Source: a virus
Direction: 5' to 3' (one strand)
IMG/VR virus record: IMGVR_UViG_3300022200_003117
Coordinates: 1 to 24,028 of that record
Length of the DNA stretch: 24,028 nucleotides
In this document: positions 7,759 to 20,210 of the stretch, piece by piece
How the letters are laid out: each line of letters opens with the position of its first letter
Numbering within the stretch: position 1 is the stretch's first letter
Notes under the pieces: model-generated
What the model saw: only the letters and a program-made list of their open reading frames with translations
What the model was told of the DNA's origin: nothing
Database searches by the model: none
Program-made: the position numbers and the translations under genes

Positions 7759-7821
7759 GTTAATTCCTATGTTTATATGTAATGATATTATATTGATATA
7801 TAGATATGTATAGATATACAT

Positions 7822-7875
7822 ATAGATATATATAAATATATAGATATATATACATAGATATATATAAATATATAG
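7822..7875. repeat. 22-bp AT-only direct repeat in AT-rich tract
   Basis: Two identical copies of a 22-bp sequence (ATAGATATATATAAATATAT plus AG) start 32 bp apart, at 7822-7843 and 7854-7875. They sit within an almost pure AT tract of about 110 bp (roughly 7765-7876). The tract forms the 5' leader between the -10 box of the minus-strand promoter and the zinc-ribbon start codon. Easily melted AT-rich repeats of this kind are typical of DNA-unwinding elements, and the helicase and primase genes lie just downstream, so an origin is possible. It could equally be a bent-DNA or binding region. Confidence 0.6.
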
Positions 7876-7899
7876 TTAACCTCACCCAACCACAGGCTG

Positions 7900-7928
7900 A
7901 GTTTAGCATACTTCAGTGAAAGTGTCAA
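7900..7928 (-). promoter_or_regulatory. Sigma-70 promoter for the replication genes
   Basis: Reading the minus strand, a perfect -35 box TTGACA (7923-7928) is separated by 17 bp from TAAACT (7900-7905), with an upstream TGC giving an extended -10. Transcription would start near 7893 and run through a roughly 130-nt AT-rich leader into the zinc-ribbon, primase, helicase and polymerase genes. It divides the leftward arm into an upstream cassette and a downstream replication group. The -10 region shares TATGCTA with the rightward promoter at 15930. Host RNA polymerase is the likely user. Confidence 0.65.
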
Positions 7929-7951: not shown

Positions 7952-8296
7952 TCAGTACACTCCTGAAGTATTCTCCTTAGTTCCTTGTGGTGCTTCTTGC
8001 ACTTTATAAATCTCTGCGAGTACAGTACCGTCAGCTAGTACAACCTCAGTAGGCTCCCGGCGGTACCATCTAGGGTGTCCCTCCAAAGAATCAATACTAT
8101 CTAGTTCTGTACTAGGTACCTTGTATACTTCCACCTCAATAGAGTAATCAGATGTGTCATCCTTTACTACGTAAGGGATTCCTGACTGGTACAAACGGTG
8201 TCCCTGAATATGCCCAGTACCCACCAAGGTACAATTCTGCAGGAGTCGGCTATTGCCATAACCAGATTTTAGTGTTCCGTAAACTGCAATAAACAT
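7952..8296 (-). CDS. Gamma-glutamylcyclotransferase-like (AIG2/GGCT fold) protein
   Basis: The 114-aa product begins FIAVYGTLKSGYGN, the substrate-binding loop typical of the AIG2/GGCT fold, and has the conserved acidic residue E72 in LEGHPRWYRR. Strands GHRLYQSGIPYVV and YSIEVEVYKV complete a small beta barrel. Family members cyclise and release gamma-glutamyl groups from amines or peptides as 5-oxoproline, or act on isopeptide-like side-chain amides. It is the last gene of the cassette that also encodes ATP-grasp, glutamine amidotransferase and two COOH-NH2 ligases, so it may trim or reverse a gamma-glutamyl linkage made by them. AGGA precedes the ATG by seven bases. The fold is confident; the substrate is not known. 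Confidence 0.85.
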   Translation of the reverse strand: MFIAVYGTLKSGYGNSRLLQNCTLVGTGHIQGHRLYQSGIPYVVKDDTSDYSIEVEVYKVPSTELDSIDSLEGHPRWYRREPTEVVLADGTVLAEIYKVQEAPQGTKENTSGVY

Positions 8297-8350
8297 GCTA
8301 GTATCCTATTGTGATTATCGTTCAAGGGAGCAGGCTCCGAGTGGATTGTG

Positions 8351-8644
8351 TTATGCTGTACGTACACTTCGGCGAACCCCTAGAAGTGCTGCTCTAATAG
8401 CCTCCTGTCTCTTCATCTCAGAAAGAATCTTTTTAGTAGTAAGTACAGTATCCTCCGGAAGTTTTCCCACGAGGCTGGTGGAAGATTCTCCAATCCGTAC
8501 GCAGCTACGTCCGCTGGGATGAATTTTATACACAGCAATACTTTTGGTATCTCTACGGGAACCCAGTATCCTTGCAAAACCCCTACTAGTAAGAACCTGT
8601 GTAAGATTTTCAGCCTCTTCTACTGATGCGCACTTGATAATCAT
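8351..8644 (-). CDS. Hypothetical protein in the amide-ligation cassette, 97 aa
   Basis: No family is recognised. The product has an alpha/beta start (MIIKCASVEEAENLTQVLTS, then GFARILGSRRDTKSIAVYKI) that could be a ferredoxin-like or ACT-like sandwich, and a strongly basic helical C-terminus (KKILSEMKRQEAIRAALLGV, then RRSVRTA). The start is fixed by the SD TAGGAGA, which is embedded in the last codons of the upstream gene; stop and start form TGACATG. Such tight coupling to the tail-bearing 162-aa protein suggests the two act together. It lies between that gene and the cyclotransferase. Confidence 0.65.
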   Translation of the reverse strand: MIIKCASVEEAENLTQVLTSRGFARILGSRRDTKSIAVYKIHPSGRSCVRIGESSTSLVGKLPEDTVLTTKKILSEMKRQEAIRAALLGVRRSVRTA

Positions 8645-8645
8645 G

Positions 8646-9134
8646 TCATTCTCCTAGCTGTGCAATAATATAATCAGCTAGTACTTCAACAGAAGTAGAT
8701 GCTGGCTTATCTATTTTTATATCTGGTAAGTCAGGAACGCCACGGTTCTCTTTCTTAGAAACGCACCACACATCAGTAAAAATAACTAGCTTATTGCCAG
8801 TGTTTGGATTCCATCCTGATTGTACTTCCTCGAAGCCCACTGCCCTGCACATATTAAGTAAGGACATTACCTCACCCTTTCTTGAACTGCCTGTACCCGC
8901 AGTCCAGCCACTATTTTCAGCAAAAGGATCCGCATCTATTGCTGTCCATATATGCGAGGATACGTCACGCAGTTTCCTGTATAAATCCACGTACAAATAC
9001 ATACGTTCGTCCTCTGTTAGCAGAGAATCATTGCCCTGAACTGCAAAATCCTGCAAGGATCTGGCACCACAGCACCCATTGGTACCTGCTAAGTTCACAG
9101 CAATCTCTACACCTTTAATATTAACGCTTCTCAT
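8646..9134 (-). CDS. Hypothetical cassette protein with shared C-terminal tail, 162 aa
   Basis: No known domain is recognised. The N-terminal half starts with a beta-like VNIKGVEIAVNLAG, then GTNGCCGARSLQDF with a vicinal Cys pair, then helical segments. A second beta region is LVIFTDVWCVSKKE. The last 23 residues (KIDKPASTSVEVLADYIIAQ, then LGE) are 15/23 identical to the end of the amidoligase encoded at 11075-11971, and the DNA is also very similar. This is the clearest sign that it belongs to the same system. The GGAGG SD overlaps the end of the ATP-grasp gene (TAACATG). Possible roles are substrate carrier, scaffold or modified target of the ligases; none is proven. Confidence 0.7.
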   Translation of the reverse strand: MRSVNIKGVEIAVNLAGTNGCCGARSLQDFAVQGNDSLLTEDERMYLYVDLYRKLRDVSSHIWTAIDADPFAENSGWTAGTGSSRKGEVMSLLNMCRAVGFEEVQSGWNPNTGNKLVIFTDVWCVSKKENRGVPDLPDIKIDKPASTSVEVLADYIIAQLGE

Positions 9135-9135
9135 G

Positions 9136-9888
9136 TTAGCCTCCGAAGGCAGTCAAGTAATTAGTAAGAGTGGTACCAGTTAAACCCGGAGCAGTGTTAA
9201 CTTCTAGTACGTAGAACGTTTCTCCATGCTCGTTGTAGATCATATCCACTGCACCGAAGTCAAGACCCAGTGCCTGTACGGACTTAACTGCTTCCTCCTT
9301 TGTCCGTTCATCGAGAAATACATCCTCTCGTCCGAACACAAACCCATTGCTGTGATTACGGATACGCCAGTTAATCGCATCATCCGGTATGGATGTATTA
9401 CGCATCTTACGCTGTATATCTATAACCGTATCTTTGTATACATGCACACGGTACTCGTGTACCTTCTTTACGTACAGTACATACAGCGGTGCATCAGGTA
9501 GGATATCCTCTGGACCCACGTCCACAATACCACGACCGGAATGAGCACGTAGCAGAGTACGAGCAAACACACGCTTGCCCTGCTGCAACCACTCTTCCGC
9601 AGCCTGCTTGCTAGTGGTATACAGGGGAATATTAATATCAGCGCGTCGTAAACAATTAAAAGCATCAAGTTTATTGGCTGCTTTATTTACTGCATATGGA
9701 TTATTTAGCACGGACTGTACTGGAATTGTACTAGGCCACCCAGCGGTACTGTGACCCCAGTTGATGACAACATCACTCGTTCGTGGTACGTATCTAGAGC
9801 CGCTGAGTTTAACACGCTTACCACCTAAACCCTCGGCTAATAACTTAGCTGAATTACTTGCACCGTAAGGTACTACACGTACTCTCAT
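9136..9888 (-). CDS. ATP-grasp ligase
   Basis: The 250-aa protein has an ATP-grasp catalytic domain. The N-terminal part (1-60) is a compact pre-ATP-grasp domain. Nucleotide-binding elements include K72 (NKAANKLDAF) and the hinge segment YVKKVHEYRVHVYKDTVID (139-157). Mg-binding residues are D215 (FGAVDMIY) and E229/N231 in YVLEVNTAPGL. These enzymes join a carboxylate to an amine through an acyl-phosphate; RimK-like members add amino acids or ligate peptides. At about 250 residues it is short but complete. Tight junctions on both sides (AACTAGGAGAATACTATG upstream, a GGAGG in its own last codons downstream) lock it into the cassette. It probably makes an amide bond on a small molecule, peptide or protein. 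Confidence 0.9.
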   Translation of the reverse strand: MRVRVVPYGASNSAKLLAEGLGGKRVKLSGSRYVPRTSDVVINWGHSTAGWPSTIPVQSVLNNPYAVNKAANKLDAFNCLRRADINIPLYTTSKQAAEEWLQQGKRVFARTLLRAHSGRGIVDVGPEDILPDAPLYVLYVKKVHEYRVHVYKDTVIDIQRKMRNTSIPDDAINWRIRNHSNGFVFGREDVFLDERTKEEAVKSVQALGLDFGAVDMIYNEHGETFYVLEVNTAPGLTGTTLTNYLTAFGG

Positions 9889-9897
9889 AGTATTCTC

Positions 9898-11073
9898 CTA
9901 GTTCGCCATGTCTGTATTGAATGCTACCATGCAGTCATTGTGGATACGCTCGTTTCCAAACCAAGAAACACCACCACTCGCTGCTTCCTCTTTGGTAATC
10001 TCAGCATTGCACCATCCGCAAAGATTTCCTGTCAAAGATTGTTGCTTGTTGCGTACTACAGCAAGATTTGTCGTACCCCTTGATGCCTTTACAGACCAAG
10101 GAGCTACGTGTATTGTACTTGTATCCTCGATGTTCAGTACCTTGGCCCTGTACTTACCTCCTACACGGAAGGTGGGGGACTGTGAGGTAGTATACAATTC
10201 TAGATCTTTTCCCTCCATAGGTGTACTGTGTTCTGGGCTTGTCGTATTAACTGTAGCAAAGACCTGAGTGGATACAATAGAATCCACAGTGAATTCTACT
10301 GTCATGTTTTGTGGGTACACATAGTTTTTAGAAGCCCGCCCACCTTGGTAGAAAGTACCGTGACCAGTGGCAGGCCGCTGCTTTACCGTAAAGGGGGTGG
10401 TCTCCAGAGCTAGGGTAGTAGTATCAATGGATACTAACTTGCCGATAGGTACTTCACCATCCTCCACTATTGTAAAGCCTCCACGAGAGATAGCCCACAC
10501 ACCCAGCTCTTTCTCAGAAGAGAATACTATACTAGGTGCAGCATTAACAGAGCGCTGGATAGAAAACCAATGCAAAGGACGTTCATCATTCTTTGCTAGG
10601 TACACAATACCATCCGAGTGCACCCAGATTAGGGCATACGCCCCTTCTAAAGATTCCAGTACAGGAATCGGGTCATCCGTAAGGCTCAGATTGTACGCAA
10701 CAGCCTCTGAGTCCGTTGCAAAAGTAGTACCTTTAGTAAGCGCATTCTTATTGGTAAGCGTGCCATTATGTACTAGTGCAATGTCCCCATGTACAAAGGG
10801 GTGTGCATTACTGGAAGTCTTTGCACCAAAAGTAGCATGCCTGTTGTGTCCAATCATTGCATCCAGTGCCCTATCAATAACAGCATTCGCACTTGGCAGC
10901 TCGAGGAAATCGTACGACGGCATGGCCTTTTTGTATACCTCAATACCAGTTGATGTCATTACTGCAACACCTGTTGAGTGCGCTCCCCGCACTACGTCCG
11001 CTAATAACATTTCACGGAACAGCGTTCGCTCCTTTGCTGTAATACTACCTATAACTCCTACTAATCCGCACAT
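9898..11073 (-). CDS. Class II glutamine amidotransferase (Ntn hydrolase)
   Basis: The 391-aa product starts MCGLVGVIG, so Cys2 becomes the N-terminal nucleophile after methionine removal. Other class II motifs are R29-G30-AHSTG, G75-H76-N77-R78-H79, N89-AHPF and H102-N103-G104. It would hydrolyse glutamine and release ammonia or transfer the amide. The N-terminal domain spans about 1-215. A beta-rich C-terminal part follows, with a zinc-knuckle-like end: C352-x2-C355 and H378-x2-C381. No synthetase domain is fused, so ammonia is probably handed to a partner; the amidoligases and ATP-grasp enzyme next to it are the obvious acceptors. Its SD (GGGAGA) lies in the last codons of the upstream amidoligase gene. 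Confidence 0.92.
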   Translation of the reverse strand: MCGLVGVIGSITAKERTLFREMLLADVVRGAHSTGVAVMTSTGIEVYKKAMPSYDFLELPSANAVIDRALDAMIGHNRHATFGAKTSSNAHPFVHGDIALVHNGTLTNKNALTKGTTFATDSEAVAYNLSLTDDPIPVLESLEGAYALIWVHSDGIVYLAKNDERPLHWFSIQRSVNAAPSIVFSSEKELGVWAISRGGFTIVEDGEVPIGKLVSIDTTTLALETTPFTVKQRPATGHGTFYQGGRASKNYVYPQNMTVEFTVDSIVSTQVFATVNTTSPEHSTPMEGKDLELYTTSQSPTFRVGGKYRAKVLNIEDTSTIHVAPWSVKASRGTTNLAVVRNKQQSLTGNLCGWCNAEITKEEAASGGVSWFGNERIHNDCMVAFNTDMAN

Positions 11074-11074
11074 A

Positions 11075-11971
11075 TCATTCTCCCAGCTGTGAAATAATGT
11101 AATCAGCCATAGCCTCTACCGGAGTAATTTCTGGCTCATCAATGTTAATAGTATCCCAATGCAGTACATCACATGCGTTCAGGTAACTGTTAGAAAAGAA
11201 AGTATTGTAATTATCACAGATAATTTTATCAGTAAGTGGGCCGAATACGGTATGTGCAAAGGCAGTAGCCCCCTGTTCCGCAGCATCCTGCACAATTTCA
11301 GACGGGTGTTTACCAGTAGTCCACATTTTGAGACGATCCAGTACCTGCAACCACTCAGTAATCTCAGTAACACTGGCAGTACCCCGGTGTGTACGTATTT
11401 CTACACTACCATAACGTGCTAACGCTGCTAAATTAACTCCGGAGTAGCGCGGCCAGCTATCAAGTACTCGTACCACTTGGTCCCGCGTTGTAGCCTTGAG
11501 TAATTTGTGTGCGGATCTTACAAGTGCATGGTATTGGTTAGCTCCCGGACAATAGATATTCGAGTACCGGGATTTTCCAGAAATTGTGTACATGCTGGAC
11601 TCAAACAGCAACCAGCCCACATAGAAAGATACTACATCTTGTAGTGTACTGCTACGAAAATCCAAATGACAATGCACACTACAACGATCATTGGCTACCC
11701 ACTGGGGGTTCTTTAGAAACGCAGCAGCTAATTCATCCAACGCATCCTCGAGATCAAGCCCTCCTACAGGGTGTGGTACTACTAACTCAGCACCATTATT
11801 TCTAAGAGAATGATCGTTCTTCCACTGCCATAGTTGCATTTCAGGACGCTGTACTACATTCTCTAACTCAATTTCTATTCCTACTAGAAAGGAGTTACAA
11901 AAACTACCCGGAAAAATTCTCCGGTTATCTGGATGGTGTCCTACTACATCACAAACATTCAATGTACTCAT
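11075..11971 (-). CDS. Amidoligase (COOH-NH2 ligase, glutamine-synthetase-like fold)
   Basis: The 298-aa protein carries the marks of the amidoligase family, relatives of glutamine synthetase and gamma-glutamylcysteine ligase that couple a carboxylate to an amine with ATP. They are G31-I-E33-I-E35-L-E37 in the first strand, NDHSLRNNGAELVVP (52-66), the H100-x-H102 strand (CSVHCHLDF), SGVNLAAL (177-184) and YGSVEIRTHRG with E191, R193 and R196. The ATG at 11971 is preferred over GTG at 11977 because AGGAG is seven bases upstream. The final 23 residues (NIDEPEITPVEAMADYIISQ, then LGE) closely match the end of the 162-aa protein at 8646. The amidotransferase immediately downstream is translationally coupled and may feed it ammonia. 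Confidence 0.88.
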   Translation of the reverse strand: MSTLNVCDVVGHHPDNRRIFPGSFCNSFLVGIEIELENVVQRPEMQLWQWKNDHSLRNNGAELVVPHPVGGLDLEDALDELAAAFLKNPQWVANDRCSVHCHLDFRSSTLQDVVSFYVGWLLFESSMYTISGKSRYSNIYCPGANQYHALVRSAHKLLKATTRDQVVRVLDSWPRYSGVNLAALARYGSVEIRTHRGTASVTEITEWLQVLDRLKMWTTGKHPSEIVQDAAEQGATAFAHTVFGPLTDKIICDNYNTFFSNSYLNACDVLHWDTINIDEPEITPVEAMADYIISQLGE

Positions 11972-11973
11972 AC

Positions 11974-12486
11974 TCACTCTCCTAACATGGTTCCGATGTA
12001 CGTGGCAACATGCCTTGCCGTTACCTTATCCAGATCCTGTACTTTACAGACACGTAAACCGCGGTAGTAGTACACGTCATTTACACGGCAGGCAAAACGT
12101 GCCACTGCGTTGCTGTATTCTGGATTGTACACCTTTTTCAAAAGTGTTCGGCAGAAATCACTACGGGTTTCCCTTAGATTTCCTGATCGTCCAGTAGCAG
12201 CATCGTAGTACTTGAAAAGATTAGGGCGTACTCCACGAATGTACTGTCGGGCAGGCTCCCGCTCACACCACAGAACCCCCTGAGAGGTACTGATGTACCC
12301 CAGATCTGGATAATCGTACACTATAGTAGGATCTTGATAGTGCAGTACCTGATCGTTGTCTATGAATTCCTTGTCGGAAGTAACATGCGCTACAAAGAAA
12401 GGAGTAATACTCCCGTCCTCATTACGCACCCCCAGCCATGACCCCTCGTAGGATCGTTGTAAATCTTCACGTGACATATCATCCAT
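11974..12486 (-). CDS. Hypothetical cassette protein with related C-terminal tail, 170 aa
   Basis: No known family is recognised. The start at 12486 is chosen because AAGGAG lies six bases upstream, formed at the stop of the preceding gene; a TTG at 12510 would only add residues encoded by the SD region. The product is rich in Tyr, Arg and Asp: GSWLGVRNEDGSITPFFVAH near the N-terminus, GVLWCEREPARQYIRGVRPN in the middle, VNDVYYYRGLRVCKVQDLDK late. It ends VTARHVATYIGTMLGE, a diverged form of the tail on the adjacent amidoligase and the 162-aa protein. The TGAGTATG junction couples it to the amidoligase, so a partner or substrate-presenting subunit is plausible. Confidence 0.7.
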   Translation of the reverse strand: MDDMSREDLQRSYEGSWLGVRNEDGSITPFFVAHVTSDKEFIDNDQVLHYQDPTIVYDYPDLGYISTSQGVLWCEREPARQYIRGVRPNLFKYYDAATGRSGNLRETRSDFCRTLLKKVYNPEYSNAVARFACRVNDVYYYRGLRVCKVQDLDKVTARHVATYIGTMLGE

Positions 12487-12496
12487 AGTGGACTCC

Positions 12497-12748
12497 TTAT
12501 ATTTGTTCAAGGGTTAGGGGATTTATAGTAATGTAATTCTCTACAGTACGAGGAATAGCATTATTCCCCCAGCTAATAGAACCGTGTCTTACAAACCAAA
12601 ATTTAGAGGTAGCAAAACCTGATTTTTCAAACAGTGCTTCGGGTACGTGCGTCCATGCTTCCGCGCCCCGTTTATTAAGAGTATAAAAAAGCGCCTTCTT
12701 AGTCGACATGTCCTTCACAAAATACATAGCAACAATCACGCAGTCCAT
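12497..12748 (-). CDS. Hypothetical cassette protein, 83 aa
   Basis: An unknown protein between the phiEco32-type ligase and the 170-aa gene. The ATG at 12748 has a perfect AGGAG five bases away, formed at the stop of the ligase gene; the longer reading from 12772 is not needed. The product begins with a hydrophobic beta strand (MDCVIVAMYFV), continues with ALFYTLNKRGAEAWTHVPEA and KFWFVRHGSISWGN, and ends in VENYITINPLTLEQI. Aromatic residues and short strands suggest a small beta-rich domain. Its own stop overlaps the SD of the next gene. Membership of the cassette is clear from spacing; function is not. Confidence 0.65.
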   Translation of the reverse strand: MDCVIVAMYFVKDMSTKKALFYTLNKRGAEAWTHVPEALFEKSGFATSKFWFVRHGSISWGNNAIPRTVENYITINPLTLEQI

Positions 12749-12756
12749 ATGTACTC

Positions 12757-13545
12757 CTATAATGCTTTGCAATAAGGAAGGGCTCGTATGCTGTCCTCAA
12801 TACGTTGGCACACTGTTACATCATAAGAATCTATAGCTGCGCGTAATACTTCTGACGGCGCTATGCTGTACAACAGAGCAGGGTTAGCAGCAAATTCAAG
12901 AGCGAGCTGTGTGCGTTTGTACACTTGCTCAATTAAATTAGCATCGTCAATCCAAAAGTTCGACAGTGCGCGATACTCCCCCCCGTAATCTTTTATGCGA
13001 CAAGATCCAGCTTTTCCATACAGCTCTCGTCGTTCTCGGTCGGTGTCCATCAGAACTGACCATGCCCCTAGCAGGTAGTCCATCATCTGAATAATCGCGA
13101 GAGTCTTTTCGAGGGTGGGATTGTCGTAACTGAAGTGAATATGTGCCCCCGCGGACCGCAGTTCTGTGAAGGGGGACGGTGCTGGTATTGTTTCCCCTGT
13201 CCATGCTTGTACCTCAGATGAACAGCCGAATCGCAAAGCGTTACTCCCGCAAGACATTAGGAAGTCCTGAGTATAGCGATTAGTGGCTTTGGTTACTAAA
13301 GAGTAGCCCGCTGGAAGAGCCTGTAATAGCTCACTATTCAGGCCGTGAATAGTACTAAGGAACATCTCAAAGGAATCACAGGGATGTGTTGCTGCTTCAG
13401 CGAGCACATTATCCTCCTGTAAATTACCATTTTTTACCCACACTGGGGCGTCCTTTGAGCCACCTATTAAACCTATACTTGAGCTGATCGTGCTGCCATC
13501 ATGCACGAACTTCTCAAAATCTGTCGCTATCTTGTCCAGTTTCAT
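12757..13545 (-). CDS. phiEco32-type COOH-NH2 ligase (second amidoligase)
   Basis: The 262-aa product matches the phage family named after phiEco32: GLIGGSKDAPV (25-35), LQEDNVLAEAA (42-52), FGCSSEVQAW (106-115), LRSAGAHIHFSY with H135 and H137 (129-140), then a signature block with LMDTDRERRELYGKAGSCRI (165-184) and YGGEYRALSNFW (187-198). These enzymes belong to the glutamine synthetase/gamma-glutamylcysteine ligase superfamily and are predicted to form amide bonds using ATP. The first metal motif, usually GxDPE, is altered here to ATDFE (7-11), keeping the Glu. It is the first enzyme of the cassette. Its ATG has only a weak AAGG, but an 11-codon ORF with a perfect SD ends right at it. Confidence 0.87.
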   Translation of the reverse strand: MKLDKIATDFEKFVHDGSTISSSIGLIGGSKDAPVWVKNGNLQEDNVLAEAATHPCDSFEMFLSTIHGLNSELLQALPAGYSLVTKATNRYTQDFLMSCGSNALRFGCSSEVQAWTGETIPAPSPFTELRSAGAHIHFSYDNPTLEKTLAIIQMMDYLLGAWSVLMDTDRERRELYGKAGSCRIKDYGGEYRALSNFWIDDANLIEQVYKRTQLALEFAANPALLYSIAPSEVLRAAIDSYDVTVCQRIEDSIRALPYCKAL

Positions 13546-15677: not shown

Positions 15678-15827
15678 CATGTGATTATGTACATCATGTG
15701 GATGTATACACCATGTGATTCTATACAGCATGATAATATATACAGTATGTACATGTATACAGCATGTGATTGTATACAGTGGGTATGCATGCAGCTGTGA
15801 TTGTATCCAGTATGTATAGATGTCCAG
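15678..15827. repeat. Nine tandem degenerate 17-bp repeats (iteron-like)
   Basis: The consensus is CATGTGATTGTATACAG. Six exact-length units run without gaps at 15678-15694, 15695-15711, 15712-15728, 15729-15745, 15746-15762 and 15763-15779. Two slightly short units (15780-15794 and 15795-15810) and a final 17-bp unit (15811-15827) follow. The units have no unique spacers, which rules out CRISPR. Arrays of 17-22 bp direct repeats beside an AT-rich segment are the hallmark of iteron origins bound by an initiator, and this array lies in the divergent control region. A regulator-binding array is the alternative. A C-rich tract (two C runs) follows at about 15834-15846. Confidence 0.75.
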
Positions 15828-15929
15828 TATAGCACCCCCCACCCCCTTACCATTCAAGCTGTGGGAGCCGGGAAGGGTAACTCCTCTCTCTGCCGGAGAA
15901 ATTAAATTCCTTGGATCATAAAATACTTC

Positions 15930-15958
15930 TTGACTTTCAGTCAAAAATATGCTATAAT
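15930..15958 (+). promoter_or_regulatory. Rightward promoter with operator palindrome over -35
   Basis: TTGACT (15930-15935), a 17-bp spacer ending TGC (extended -10) and a perfect TATAAT (15953-15958) make the best sigma-70 promoter in the window. Transcription would begin near 15965 and run through a leader of about 175 nt into the packaging and head genes. The -35 box is the left arm of a perfect palindrome, TTGACT-TTC-AGTCAA (15930-15944), so a repressor dimer could compete directly with RNA polymerase. Confidence 0.75.
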
Positions 15959-19088: not shown

Positions 19089-20210
19089 ATGGCTCAATTC
19101 TTAAGACCTGATGGTAATATAACCCAGACAGGGTTCACCAACGGTTTTGCTGAAATTGATGAGAGTACAGCATCAGATGCTGATTATGCGTACACTGCTA
19201 ATAGTACGAACGGTGTACTAGAAGTAAGTTTAACTAACCCAGCAGCTACTCCGGATACAGGATCCTCAACTATACGTGTACGAGCAGTACAGATAGATGA
19301 AGATTCTACTACATATCCATCACATACTCCCGATAATAGTGGAACAAGTACATCAGTATCCGCTATAGAAATATTTGAAGGAGCTACCAGTAGGTACAGT
19401 AACACTACTGGGTGGGCTACTAATAGTACTTCGTGGGTTGATATAGCTCTAACAAGTGCTGACCTATCATCTGTTGTTGATTGGACGGATGTTAGATTAC
19501 GTATAAGCACTATAGGTGGTGGCGGCTCTCCTGCTAAAAGACGGGGAGTAGCAGTATCTTGGGCAGAGGTAGAAGTACCCTCAGCTGCACCAAATACTGG
19601 TACTGGTGATACCGCTGCTTCAAGTTCCACTGCAGTAGGCGCTGGTGTTATAGGTAGAAAAGCTACAGGTAGTACTGTAGCTAGTACTAGTACTGTTGTA
19701 GGAGTTGCTGTACGTACAATTACTGGTGCTGGGGATGCTATTTCTAGCGACAGCTTGGTAAGTGGTACAGGATCAGCTGGTGCTGGCATTACTGGGGACG
19801 GCTCAATTGTAGCAGGAGCTGTTATAGTAATAGGAACGGGCATCAGGAGTATTCAAGGAACAGGTTCTGTAATTTCTACGGATAGTATTACTCTCGGCAC
19901 TGGCAGTATTCAAGGAAGTGTAGAGGCAGTAGGTGCTACCGTTGCTAGTTCCTCAGTAGTTGCAGGAATAGGTACTAGGGTAATTACAGGATCAGCAGTA
20001 ATTACTTGTAGCGAGATTACTACTATAGGAGTAGGTACTAGAATTATTACAGGCTCCGGTACCATTGTATCAGATCCAGCTATTACTCGAGGTAGTGAAG
20101 AGGTAATAGTAATCCCGTCATTTAGACCAGAAGTACTAATGAGACTAGTTAGTCGAGTTATTAAAATAGGAAGGGAAAATGCCCAACATTACCACCACCG
20201 GGACTTATAG
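19089..20210 (+). CDS. Repeat-containing probable virion protein, 373 aa
   Basis: Residues 1-170 form a beta-sandwich-like domain ending VSWAEVEVPSAAPNTGTG, of the kind found in phage adhesion or decoration proteins. Residues about 172-335 are roughly eight degenerate repeats of 19-25 residues, each ending in a turn like GTRVITG or GTGIRSIQG followed by a Ser/Val strand (TVASSSVVAG). This is the pattern of a beta-solenoid or fibrous shaft. The basic C-terminus (RPEVLMRLVSRVIKIGREN) is different in character and overlaps the next gene by 32 bases. It has no SD and is probably coupled to the gene before it. Likely an exposed, fast-evolving head or neck fibre. Confidence 0.6.
   Translation: MAQFLRPDGNITQTGFTNGFAEIDESTASDADYAYTANSTNGVLEVSLTNPAATPDTGSSTIRVRAVQIDEDSTTYPSHTPDNSGTSTSVSAIEIFEGATSRYSNTTGWATNSTSWVDIALTSADLSSVVDWTDVRLRISTIGGGGSPAKRRGVAVSWAEVEVPSAAPNTGTGDTAASSSTAVGAGVIGRKATGSTVASTSTVVGVAVRTITGAGDAISSDSLVSGTGSAGAGITGDGSIVAGAVIVIGTGIRSIQGTGSVISTDSITLGTGSIQGSVEAVGATVASSSVVAGIGTRVITGSAVITCSEITTIGVGTRIITGSGTIVSDPAITRGSEEVIVIPSFRPEVLMRLVSRVIKIGRENAQHYHHRDL

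Follow-up and report, generated by a model that had tools for sequence, protein, structure and literature searches.

A divergent phage amidoligase cassette with candidate partner proteins and a predicted gamma-glutamyl intermediate

The enzymes of the phage amidoligase cassette were reportedly first predicted by Iyer et al. in 2009. The genes are known as a "peptidoglycan modification cassette" from RIO-1, CW02, PA11, LUZ24/PaP3 and phiEco32-like phages (PMC5498523, PMC11945000, PMC3890496); the description for RIO-1 is that of Hardies et al. 2013 (see PMC5498523). A demonstrated product of the cassette was not found in the literature. The module occurs in Zobellviridae, Bruynoghevirus, Kuravirus, Moazamivirus, Lahexavirus and one crAss-like phage, again with replication genes adjoining.

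The locus described here lies in IMG/VR record IMGVR_UViG_3300022200_003117, where the window analysed is 24,028 nucleotides long. From the letters of the DNA it had been predicted to hold amide-ligation genes like those of phages such as phiEco32. This is correct, and the cassette is one already described (PMC5498523, PMC11945000, PMC3890496). Judged by its sequence, the gene set is a divergent version of that cassette and not a new system. As in the RIO-1-type cassette, a gamma-glutamyl(amine) cyclotransferase (GGCT), a class II glutamine amidotransferase (GATase), two glutamine-synthetase-like amidoligases and a RimK-like ATP-grasp ligase form one block beside replication genes. Unlike that cassette, this virus has ligases with only about 25-50% identity to database phages, and it adds a tailed accessory protein, 8646, and two orphan ORFs. 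With the LUZ24/PaP3-like (Bruynoghevirus) and phiEco32-like (Kuravirus) phages it shares the core order COOH-NH2 ligase, protein of about 180 residues, Amidoligase_2, GATase, ATP-grasp, GGCT and primase/helicase, but homologues of 8646, 8351 and 12497 were not detected in those cassettes. New here are the 11974 protein as a core partner, the replaceability of GGCT, the tail shared by 8646 and the amidoligase, and clusters of tailed proteins in other cassette phages.

Gene content and distribution

Nine minus-strand ORFs were confirmed at or near the positions originally predicted, between 7952 and 13545. The starts used are the best supported, each an ATG behind a Shine-Dalgarno site (12748 for ORF 12497, 12486 for ORF 11974 and 11971 for Amidoligase_2). 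With these starts, only 1-10 nt separate neighbouring cassette genes, and GGCT is preceded by 54 nt. The nine consecutive genes therefore stand, but the overlap that had been claimed for most of them is tight packing, and to call the four non-enzyme genes of the note "translationally locked" to the enzymes is too strong. A replication module with primase, DnaB-like helicase and DNA polymerase (7377-3118) adjoins the cassette.

Five of the ORFs encode intact-looking enzymes. All five exceed their Pfam cut-offs (GGACT, GATase_6, Amidoligase_2, COOH-NH2_lig and, marginally, RimK), and the PHROGs assignments agree. The catalytic motifs noticed in these genes are thus borne out by domain matches and by the active-site residues that they keep; the catalytic and invariant residues are present in all three ligases.

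The COOH-NH2 ligase type 2 (PF14395; 12757..13545, 262 aa) is a glutamine-synthetase-like amidoligase (30.9 bits against a cut-off of 25; phrog_3815, E 1.7e-59). It keeps the invariant residues D9, E11, H135, H137, R172, R183, E190 and R192, and 304 phage records match it. The second glutamine-synthetase-like ligase, Amidoligase_2 (PF12224; 11075..11971, 298-300 aa), scores 32.4 bits against 22 (phrog_7469, E 1.6e-51) and keeps E35, E37, E39, D55, R59, E64, H102, H104, R137, Y178, E193 and R195. The RimK-like ATP-grasp ligase (9136..9888, 250 aa) matches the RimK Pfam family marginally (21.6 against 21 bits) and phrog_2599 with E 5e-80. The best PDB matches of its profile are the RimK-type glutamate ligases 5zct/4iwx (E 1e-7); its invariant residues are kept, and 309 phage records match. 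The Ntn-type GATase (9898..11073; GATase_6, 37.9 bits against 27; phrog_4736, E 3.8e-60) has Cys2 in the motif MCGLVGVIG and a zinc-ribbon-like C-terminal end, CxxC...HxxxC. A match of the COOH-NH2 ligase profile to 8fjg was isolated and weak, and was left aside.

Each ligase has matches in about 300 GenBank phages. Sequenced phages with the cassette, likewise about 300, include PaP3, LUZ24, phiEco32 and P. aeruginosa phages under consideration as therapeutics. Among 48 full-context loci selected by ATP-grasp alone, Amidoligase_2 and GATase are found in all 48, and the COOH-NH2 ligase and the 11974 family in 47 each. IMG/VR contains about 470 cassette loci; single proteins of this virus gave no match there, and alignments were needed as queries.

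Predicted gamma-glutamyl-cleaving enzymes

The GGCT (7952..8296, 114 aa) belongs to the AIG2/GGACT family (PF06094, 73.2 bits against 22.8; phrog_2520, E 2e-21) and has the motifs YGTLKSG and DSLEG. Other cassette phages carry an unrelated C26 protein, with the PuuD-type motif G(I/V/S)CRGxQ in 35 of 36 cases and HHQ in most; no C26 hydrolase was seen in the 24 kb available for this virus. Across 50 near-complete records of at least 40 kb, 11 have GGCT only, 22 have C26 only, 15 have both and two have neither. The two enzymes are anticorrelated (Fisher p = 0.009, n = 50, uncorrected for relatedness). On the ATP-grasp tree, about 17 changes account for the four states, but the well-supported branches force only a few of them.

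From these patterns, GGCT is evidently replaceable by the unrelated PuuD-type gamma-glutamyl hydrolase (GICRGxQ). The 15 records with both enzymes mean that GGCT and C26 are not strict substitutes, and the C26 proteins could supply ammonia instead of acting as hydrolases. Because at least one of the two enzymes occurs in 48 of the 50 records, and because they are anticorrelated, the data support a scheme in which a gamma-glutamyl bond is first made and afterwards removed. The anticorrelation of GGCT with this second gamma-glutamyl-cleaving enzyme also supports the proposal that the GGCT-like protein trims or reverses the bond that the ligases form. The near-universal presence of one enzyme or the other predicts a gamma-glutamyl intermediate that mass spectrometry could trace.

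Candidate partner proteins

The four remaining genes had been expected to co-occur with the enzymes, and they differ widely in this respect. The 11974 protein (11974..12486, 170 aa; phrog_4877, E 3e-10) is near-universal. Its family is always found with the ligases and lies, in the full-context loci, nearly always between the COOH-NH2 ligase and Amidoligase_2. Because it accompanies the ligases and GATase in 47 of 48 loci, the family is, by its distribution, a core cassette partner. The structure model (pLDDT 86.6) predicts a small beta-barrel-like fold; it has no match in the PDB at E <= 0.001 and matches proteins of CW02 and other phages in BFVD. The evidence for its role as a partner consists entirely of co-occurrence and gene order.

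The orphan ORFs 12497 (12497..12748, 83 aa, ATG behind AGGAG) and 8351 (8351..8644, 97 aa) have no homologues in 96 cassette loci or in 50,697 phage records. The fourth gene, 8646 (8646..9134, 162 aa, with CCG and NPNTGN motifs), encodes an occasional accessory, with homologues in 11 loci, usually placed between ATP-grasp and GGCT. It possibly has a GNAT-like fold: its model (pLDDT 73) matches GNAT folds with a probability of about 1 and a TM-score of only 0.38-0.45. None of the 11 members of the family matches GNAT or any other Pfam family.

Amidoligase_2 and 8646 end in a common tail. The amidoligase tail VEAMADYIISQLGE (11078..11119) and the 8646 tail VEVLADYIIAQLGE (8649..8690) are identical at 11 of 14 positions, with pS 0.50 against pN 0.12 over 13 codons. 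Matching tails on the amidoligase and the 8646-family protein are found in three lineages (this virus, L018 and L022/L023), and the tail sequence differs from one lineage to another. The shared ends of L018 and L022 are identical or nearly so in DNA, so gene ends are also copied, and recently. A near-identical end peptide on the two proteins suggests that they work together. The 11974 protein was not accepted as a third carrier of the tail in this virus, because its LGE end contains GGAG, which serves the following gene as ribosome-binding site.

Proposed mechanism, alternatives and precedents

The locus is probably a divergent copy of a conserved phage amidoligase cassette that works in the order GATase, three ligases, GGCT, with 11974 and 8646 as partners. 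In the cytoplasm during infection, the class II GATase would take amide nitrogen from glutamine. Using ATP, the RimK-like ATP-grasp enzyme and the two glutamine-synthetase-like ligases would then join one amide bond after another to a single acceptor, and at least one of these bonds would be gamma-glutamyl. GGCT would later release the gamma-glutamyl group as 5-oxoproline; this group would therefore be a transient handle or protecting group that does not remain in the product. The 11974 protein may be an obligate non-catalytic partner coupling both amidoligases, and 8646 an optional one, held to Amidoligase_2 by the matching tail. We infer this reaction order, the gamma-glutamyl intermediate and the complex; what is observed is the gene content, the intact active sites, the conserved co-occurrence and the shared tail. 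The acceptor may be a peptidoglycan precursor, as others have guessed, a protein or a soluble peptide.

Alteration of peptidoglycan precursor peptides, by amidation or by extra gamma-glutamyl or peptide links that would change the wall once infection has begun and might, for instance, block superinfecting phages, is a possible if somewhat doubtful alternative. Such a role was proposed for RIO-1-like phages (PMC5498523), a LUZ24-like phage (PMC11945000) and OM43 phages (PMC10580990), and the enzyme classes suit amide chemistry on peptides. However, measurements of wall chemistry are absent from the papers found, Pfam and PHROGs assign no Mur ligase, Fem or MurT/GatD among the nine genes, and a lytic cycle is short for rebuilding the wall.

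It is unlikely that proteins receive amino acids or amides at their C-termini or side chains from the RimK-like ATP-grasp enzyme and the ligases, with the tails as tags or acceptors. In favour of this, the ATP-grasp enzyme is nearest to RimK-type glutamate ligases, which use a protein C-terminus, and the tail common to the amidoligase and 8646 is not the only one. Seven other cassette phages each have 4-14 small ORFs around the cassette with a common, phage-specific C-terminal tail, and a de novo genome-wide search of these genomes again gave one main tail cluster each, around the cassette. The position near the cassette is significant within the seven genomes, a result biased by the clusters having first been found in cassette loci. 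Where tested (L090, CW02 and L019), the tails are conserved as protein, with pS 0.63-1.07 while the peptide holds. This high synonymous change rejects a DNA repeat in these three, but not in L018 and L022. Paralogy is mostly rejected, the bodies being largely unrelated (3 of 66 pairs related in L019); the tailed proteins of L026, whose bodies are related, are an exception.

Against protein modification, a tail cluster is detectable in only 7 of 94 cassette loci, so tails are not a general property of cassette phages. The excess over matched non-cassette loci (1 of 48) is not significant at the level of loci (p = 0.27), although that over all controls is (p = 0.011). One phage without the cassette has a small cluster. 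The tails also have no reactive residue in common. The last residue is Glu in this virus, G002 and W08 but not in CW02, G041, G017, G034, G008, L018 or L023, and LysW-like amino-group carriers, which need a constant C-terminal Glu, were rejected.

No published description of such tails was found in the literature. They could be tags on otherwise unrelated proteins, read by the amidoligase system in a virus-encoded, tag-directed protein modification, an idea we put forward with little confidence. The tag would then be either a docking site for the enzyme complex (this virus, L018 and L022/L023, on the amidoligase and 8646) or a ligase acceptor (G002, CW02 and others, on 4-14 small proteins). 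Recognition of the tails by the ligases, if it occurs, would make this a kind of tag-based system not yet described in viruses. The phage-specific tails single out a small, defined set of proteins as candidate partners or substrates.

A part in auxiliary nitrogen or amino-acid metabolism, scavenging ammonia or recycling gamma-glutamyl compounds for host or phage, is distinctly unlikely. Nitrogen metabolism is claimed for Phage-ZRK32, which has the same gene order (locus L017), but the growth effect is not linked to these genes by deletion in the available part of that paper (PMC10945688). A five-gene ligase block with its 11974 partner also exceeds the needs of scavenging. Some phages decorate their DNA bases with amino acids. 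Despite this precedent and the adjoining replication genes, modification of DNA bases with amino acids or ammonia is very improbable, since HaeIII cut the DNA of phage tf, which has an amidoligase and a GATase (PMC3517423), and none of the scanned genes of this virus was recognised as one for base hypermodification.

The preferred scheme, in which GATase, three ligases and GGCT act in turn, has precedents. In the PuuA/PuuD putrescine route and in BtrJ/BtrG butirosin synthesis, an ATP-dependent ligase adds a gamma-glutamyl group that a hydrolase or cyclotransferase later removes. The cassette differs from these routes in having three ligases and a separate GATase, with no carrier protein identified, but the same addition and later removal is proposed here. 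RimK acts on a protein C-terminus. Compared with RimK and LysX/LysW, the cassette has no identified LysW-like carrier and its tails have no constant C-terminal Glu, but its ATP-grasp enzyme is RimK-like, and these systems provide a precedent for ligation to the C-terminus of a protein.

Gene block and its conserved partner

All nine minus-strand genes of the original prediction are present in the window, between 7952 and 13545. Their tight packing is confirmed, but the predicted overlap is not. The genes abut if read from the ATG starts that ribosome-binding sites favour (12748 for ORF 12497, 12486 for ORF 11974 and 11971 for Amidoligase_2). Starts supported in this way leave gaps of 1-10 nt, and 54 nt before GGCT. 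The predicted enzyme domains also hold up: COOH-NH2_lig (12757..13545), Amidoligase_2 (11075..11971), GATase_6 (9898..11073) and GGACT (in GGCT, 7952..8296) exceed the Pfam cut-off, RimK (in the ATP-grasp gene, 9136..9888) is marginal, and PHROGs are strongly concordant. The solved structures nearest to the ATP-grasp profile are RimK-type glutamate ligases, and alignment shows that the three ligases retain residues invariant across 10-17 diverse homologues. The GATase C-terminus (9898-10020) contains a CxxC...HxxxC stretch; a conserved zinc-ribbon end is suggested, since CxxC pairs are found at the ends of many homologues as well. On both sides the block is flanked by genes for phage replication, packaging and heads. 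The record itself is a virus contig of 24,028 bases.

The four remaining genes had been expected to co-occur with the enzymes. The test applied iterated profiles to 96 loci; 80 IMG/VR loci were fetched by ATP-grasp alignment only, and 16 annotated phage loci were chosen by ATP-grasp or, in a few cases, by COOH ligase. Among the 48 full-context loci (at least 6 kb either side, some of the annotated loci included), Amidoligase_2 and GATase occur in 48, COOH ligase and the 11974 family in 47 each, GGCT in 18 and the 8646 family in 5. The expectation is borne out for 11974, applies occasionally to 8646, and fails for 8351 and 12497, which have no homologue in the 96 cassette loci or in 50,697 phage records.

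Since its family is found in 47 of 48 loci, 11974 is a core member of the cassette, nearly always placed between the two amidoligases. Its predicted structure is good (pLDDT 86.6, pTM 0.80). Against solved folds the model has no match at E <= 0.001, with SH3/Tudor-like matches weak only; its clear matches are uncharacterised phage proteins, one from phage CW02. In the loci that have it, the 8646 gene is usually found between ATP-grasp and GGCT, the position it takes in the window, and members of its family have CCG and NPNSGN motifs in common. A moderate model of 8646 aligns with GNAT acyltransferases at TM 0.38-0.45, a likeness that is suggestive only.

Elsewhere in the window, a 17-bp repeat (CATGTGAATGTATACAG) recurs in about eight imperfect copies at 15678-15815 and 15915-15958. 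The copies adjoin divergent promoter-like sites (plus strand TTGACT-17-TATAAT, minus strand TTGACT-18-TATGAT) where the two gene arms diverge, and may mark a control region or origin. The gap between GGCT and the primase gene holds AT-rich tandem repeats (7790-7928) and a minus-strand promoter-like site, TTGACA-17-TAAACT (7928-7900). Between the genes for terminase and portal, an ORF of 373 aa (19089-20210) has no PHROG match at E <= 0.01.

GGCT and C26

A class I GATase-like Peptidase_C26 protein (C26) lies upstream of the cassette in 36 of the 48 loci. G(I/V/S)CRGxQ is found in 35 of these 36 proteins, usually with HHQ, a combination that agrees more closely with PuuD-type gamma-glutamyl hydrolases than with GATases that supply ammonia (GxCLGxQ). 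Whole records of 40 kb or more contain GGCT only (11), C26 only (22), both (15) or neither (2; Fisher p = 0.009). On the ATP-grasp tree these states imply about 17 changes, few of them forced by well-supported branches. We read this pattern as GGCT and C26 providing two unrelated routes for removing a gamma-glutamyl group. GGCT is present in the window, and a C26 gene is not seen within its 24 kb. In 24 of the 48 loci, the region upstream of the cassette also encodes a protein of about 310-360 aa with no assigned function (L003:961-1893 and relatives).

Shared C-terminal tails

In the window, the amidoligase and 8646 end in a common short peptide, or tail: VEAMADYIISQLGE in the former and VEVLADYIIAQLGE in the latter, identical at 11 of 14 residues (phmmer E 1e-4), with pS 0.50 and pN 0.12 for the pair. 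The last residues coincide with the next gene's ribosome-binding site. This overlap accounts for the weaker LGE end of 11974 and leaves the remainder of the tail likeness unexplained. At L018 and at L022/L023, the amidoligase and an 8646 relative also share tails, of different sequence (NVEEILAALDAAVRAASA; DIESILAELDNFI).

Seven other cassette phages, from roughly five lineages, have 4-14 mostly small ORFs around the cassette with a common phage-specific tail: LENE (L019/G002), LEENV (CW02, L002/L098), MENE (L009/L115), FKGNK (L039/G017), FKGN/FRGN (L074/G034), ELPYDPxQQPDEEDDI (L090/G041) and EDKxII (L026/G008). The bodies of these ORFs are largely unrelated to one another; many resemble small SH3-like "GDxV" proteins. 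In the multi-member sets tested, the peptide holds despite high synonymous change (pS 0.63-1.07, pN 0-0.17), with synonymous freedom partly limited by ribosome-binding sites for LENE, LEENV and FKGN.

In a de novo genome-wide search, each genome yielded a single main tail cluster, located around the cassette. In the seven genomes the tail is on 44/64 small ORFs near the cassette versus 10/141 elsewhere, a difference partly biased by cluster discovery. Tail-sharing ORF pairs number 74/24,580 in cassette loci, 1/8,024 in 80 random viral loci and 7/14,043 in 48 cassette-free loci matched by DNA polymerase. Counted by locus, cassette loci do not significantly exceed this matched control (p = 0.27). 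In the phage contig L294/G047 (72666-75760), where no cassette was detected, three ORFs with a common NGLF tail adjoin DNA polymerase; shared tails are therefore not exclusive to the cassette. A literature search found no published description of such tails.

Proposed mechanism and known cassettes

Glutamine would feed the system, and two glutamine-synthetase-like ligases and the RimK-like ligase would form successive amide bonds. GGCT would take off a transient gamma-glutamyl group, with 11974 as an obligate partner and 8646 as an accessory docked via its tail. The analysis directly demonstrates the identities of the domains, their intact motifs, the co-occurrence of the genes and the tails; from these we infer the order of chemistry and the formation of a complex. 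Candidate acceptors are a peptidoglycan precursor (as guessed in the literature), the C-termini of proteins or a soluble peptide.

With tblastn, 304 of the 50,697 phage records matched COOH ligase, 309 ATP-grasp and 321 Amidoligase_2, every one below 60% identity. The same block is annotated in Zobellviridae (CW02, O4, 172P1, oyster metagenome phages) and in PaP3, phiEco32, Salmonella phage 7-11, an Aeromonas phage and a crAss-like phage; in annotated relatives it usually adjoins primase/helicase and DNA polymerase. In the literature the block is named a seven-gene "peptidoglycan modification cassette", conserved in RIO-1, phiEco32, 7-11, PA11, tf, LUZ24, PaP3 and CW02 (PMC5498523), and a LUZ24-like phage has a similar module (PMC11945000; also PMC3890496). 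One paper infers a role in nitrogen metabolism (PMC10945688). A partial "Poriferisphaera phage ZRK32" record (L017, OP650935), from what is described as a chronic planctomycete phage, has the cassette in PaP3 gene order. No experimentally shown cassette product was found in the publications located.

What is new, and can be tested, is the almost universal presence of the 11974 partner, the relation between GGCT and C26, and the sharing of tails. The cassette itself is real, well conserved and previously described, and the window carries a divergent variant of it.
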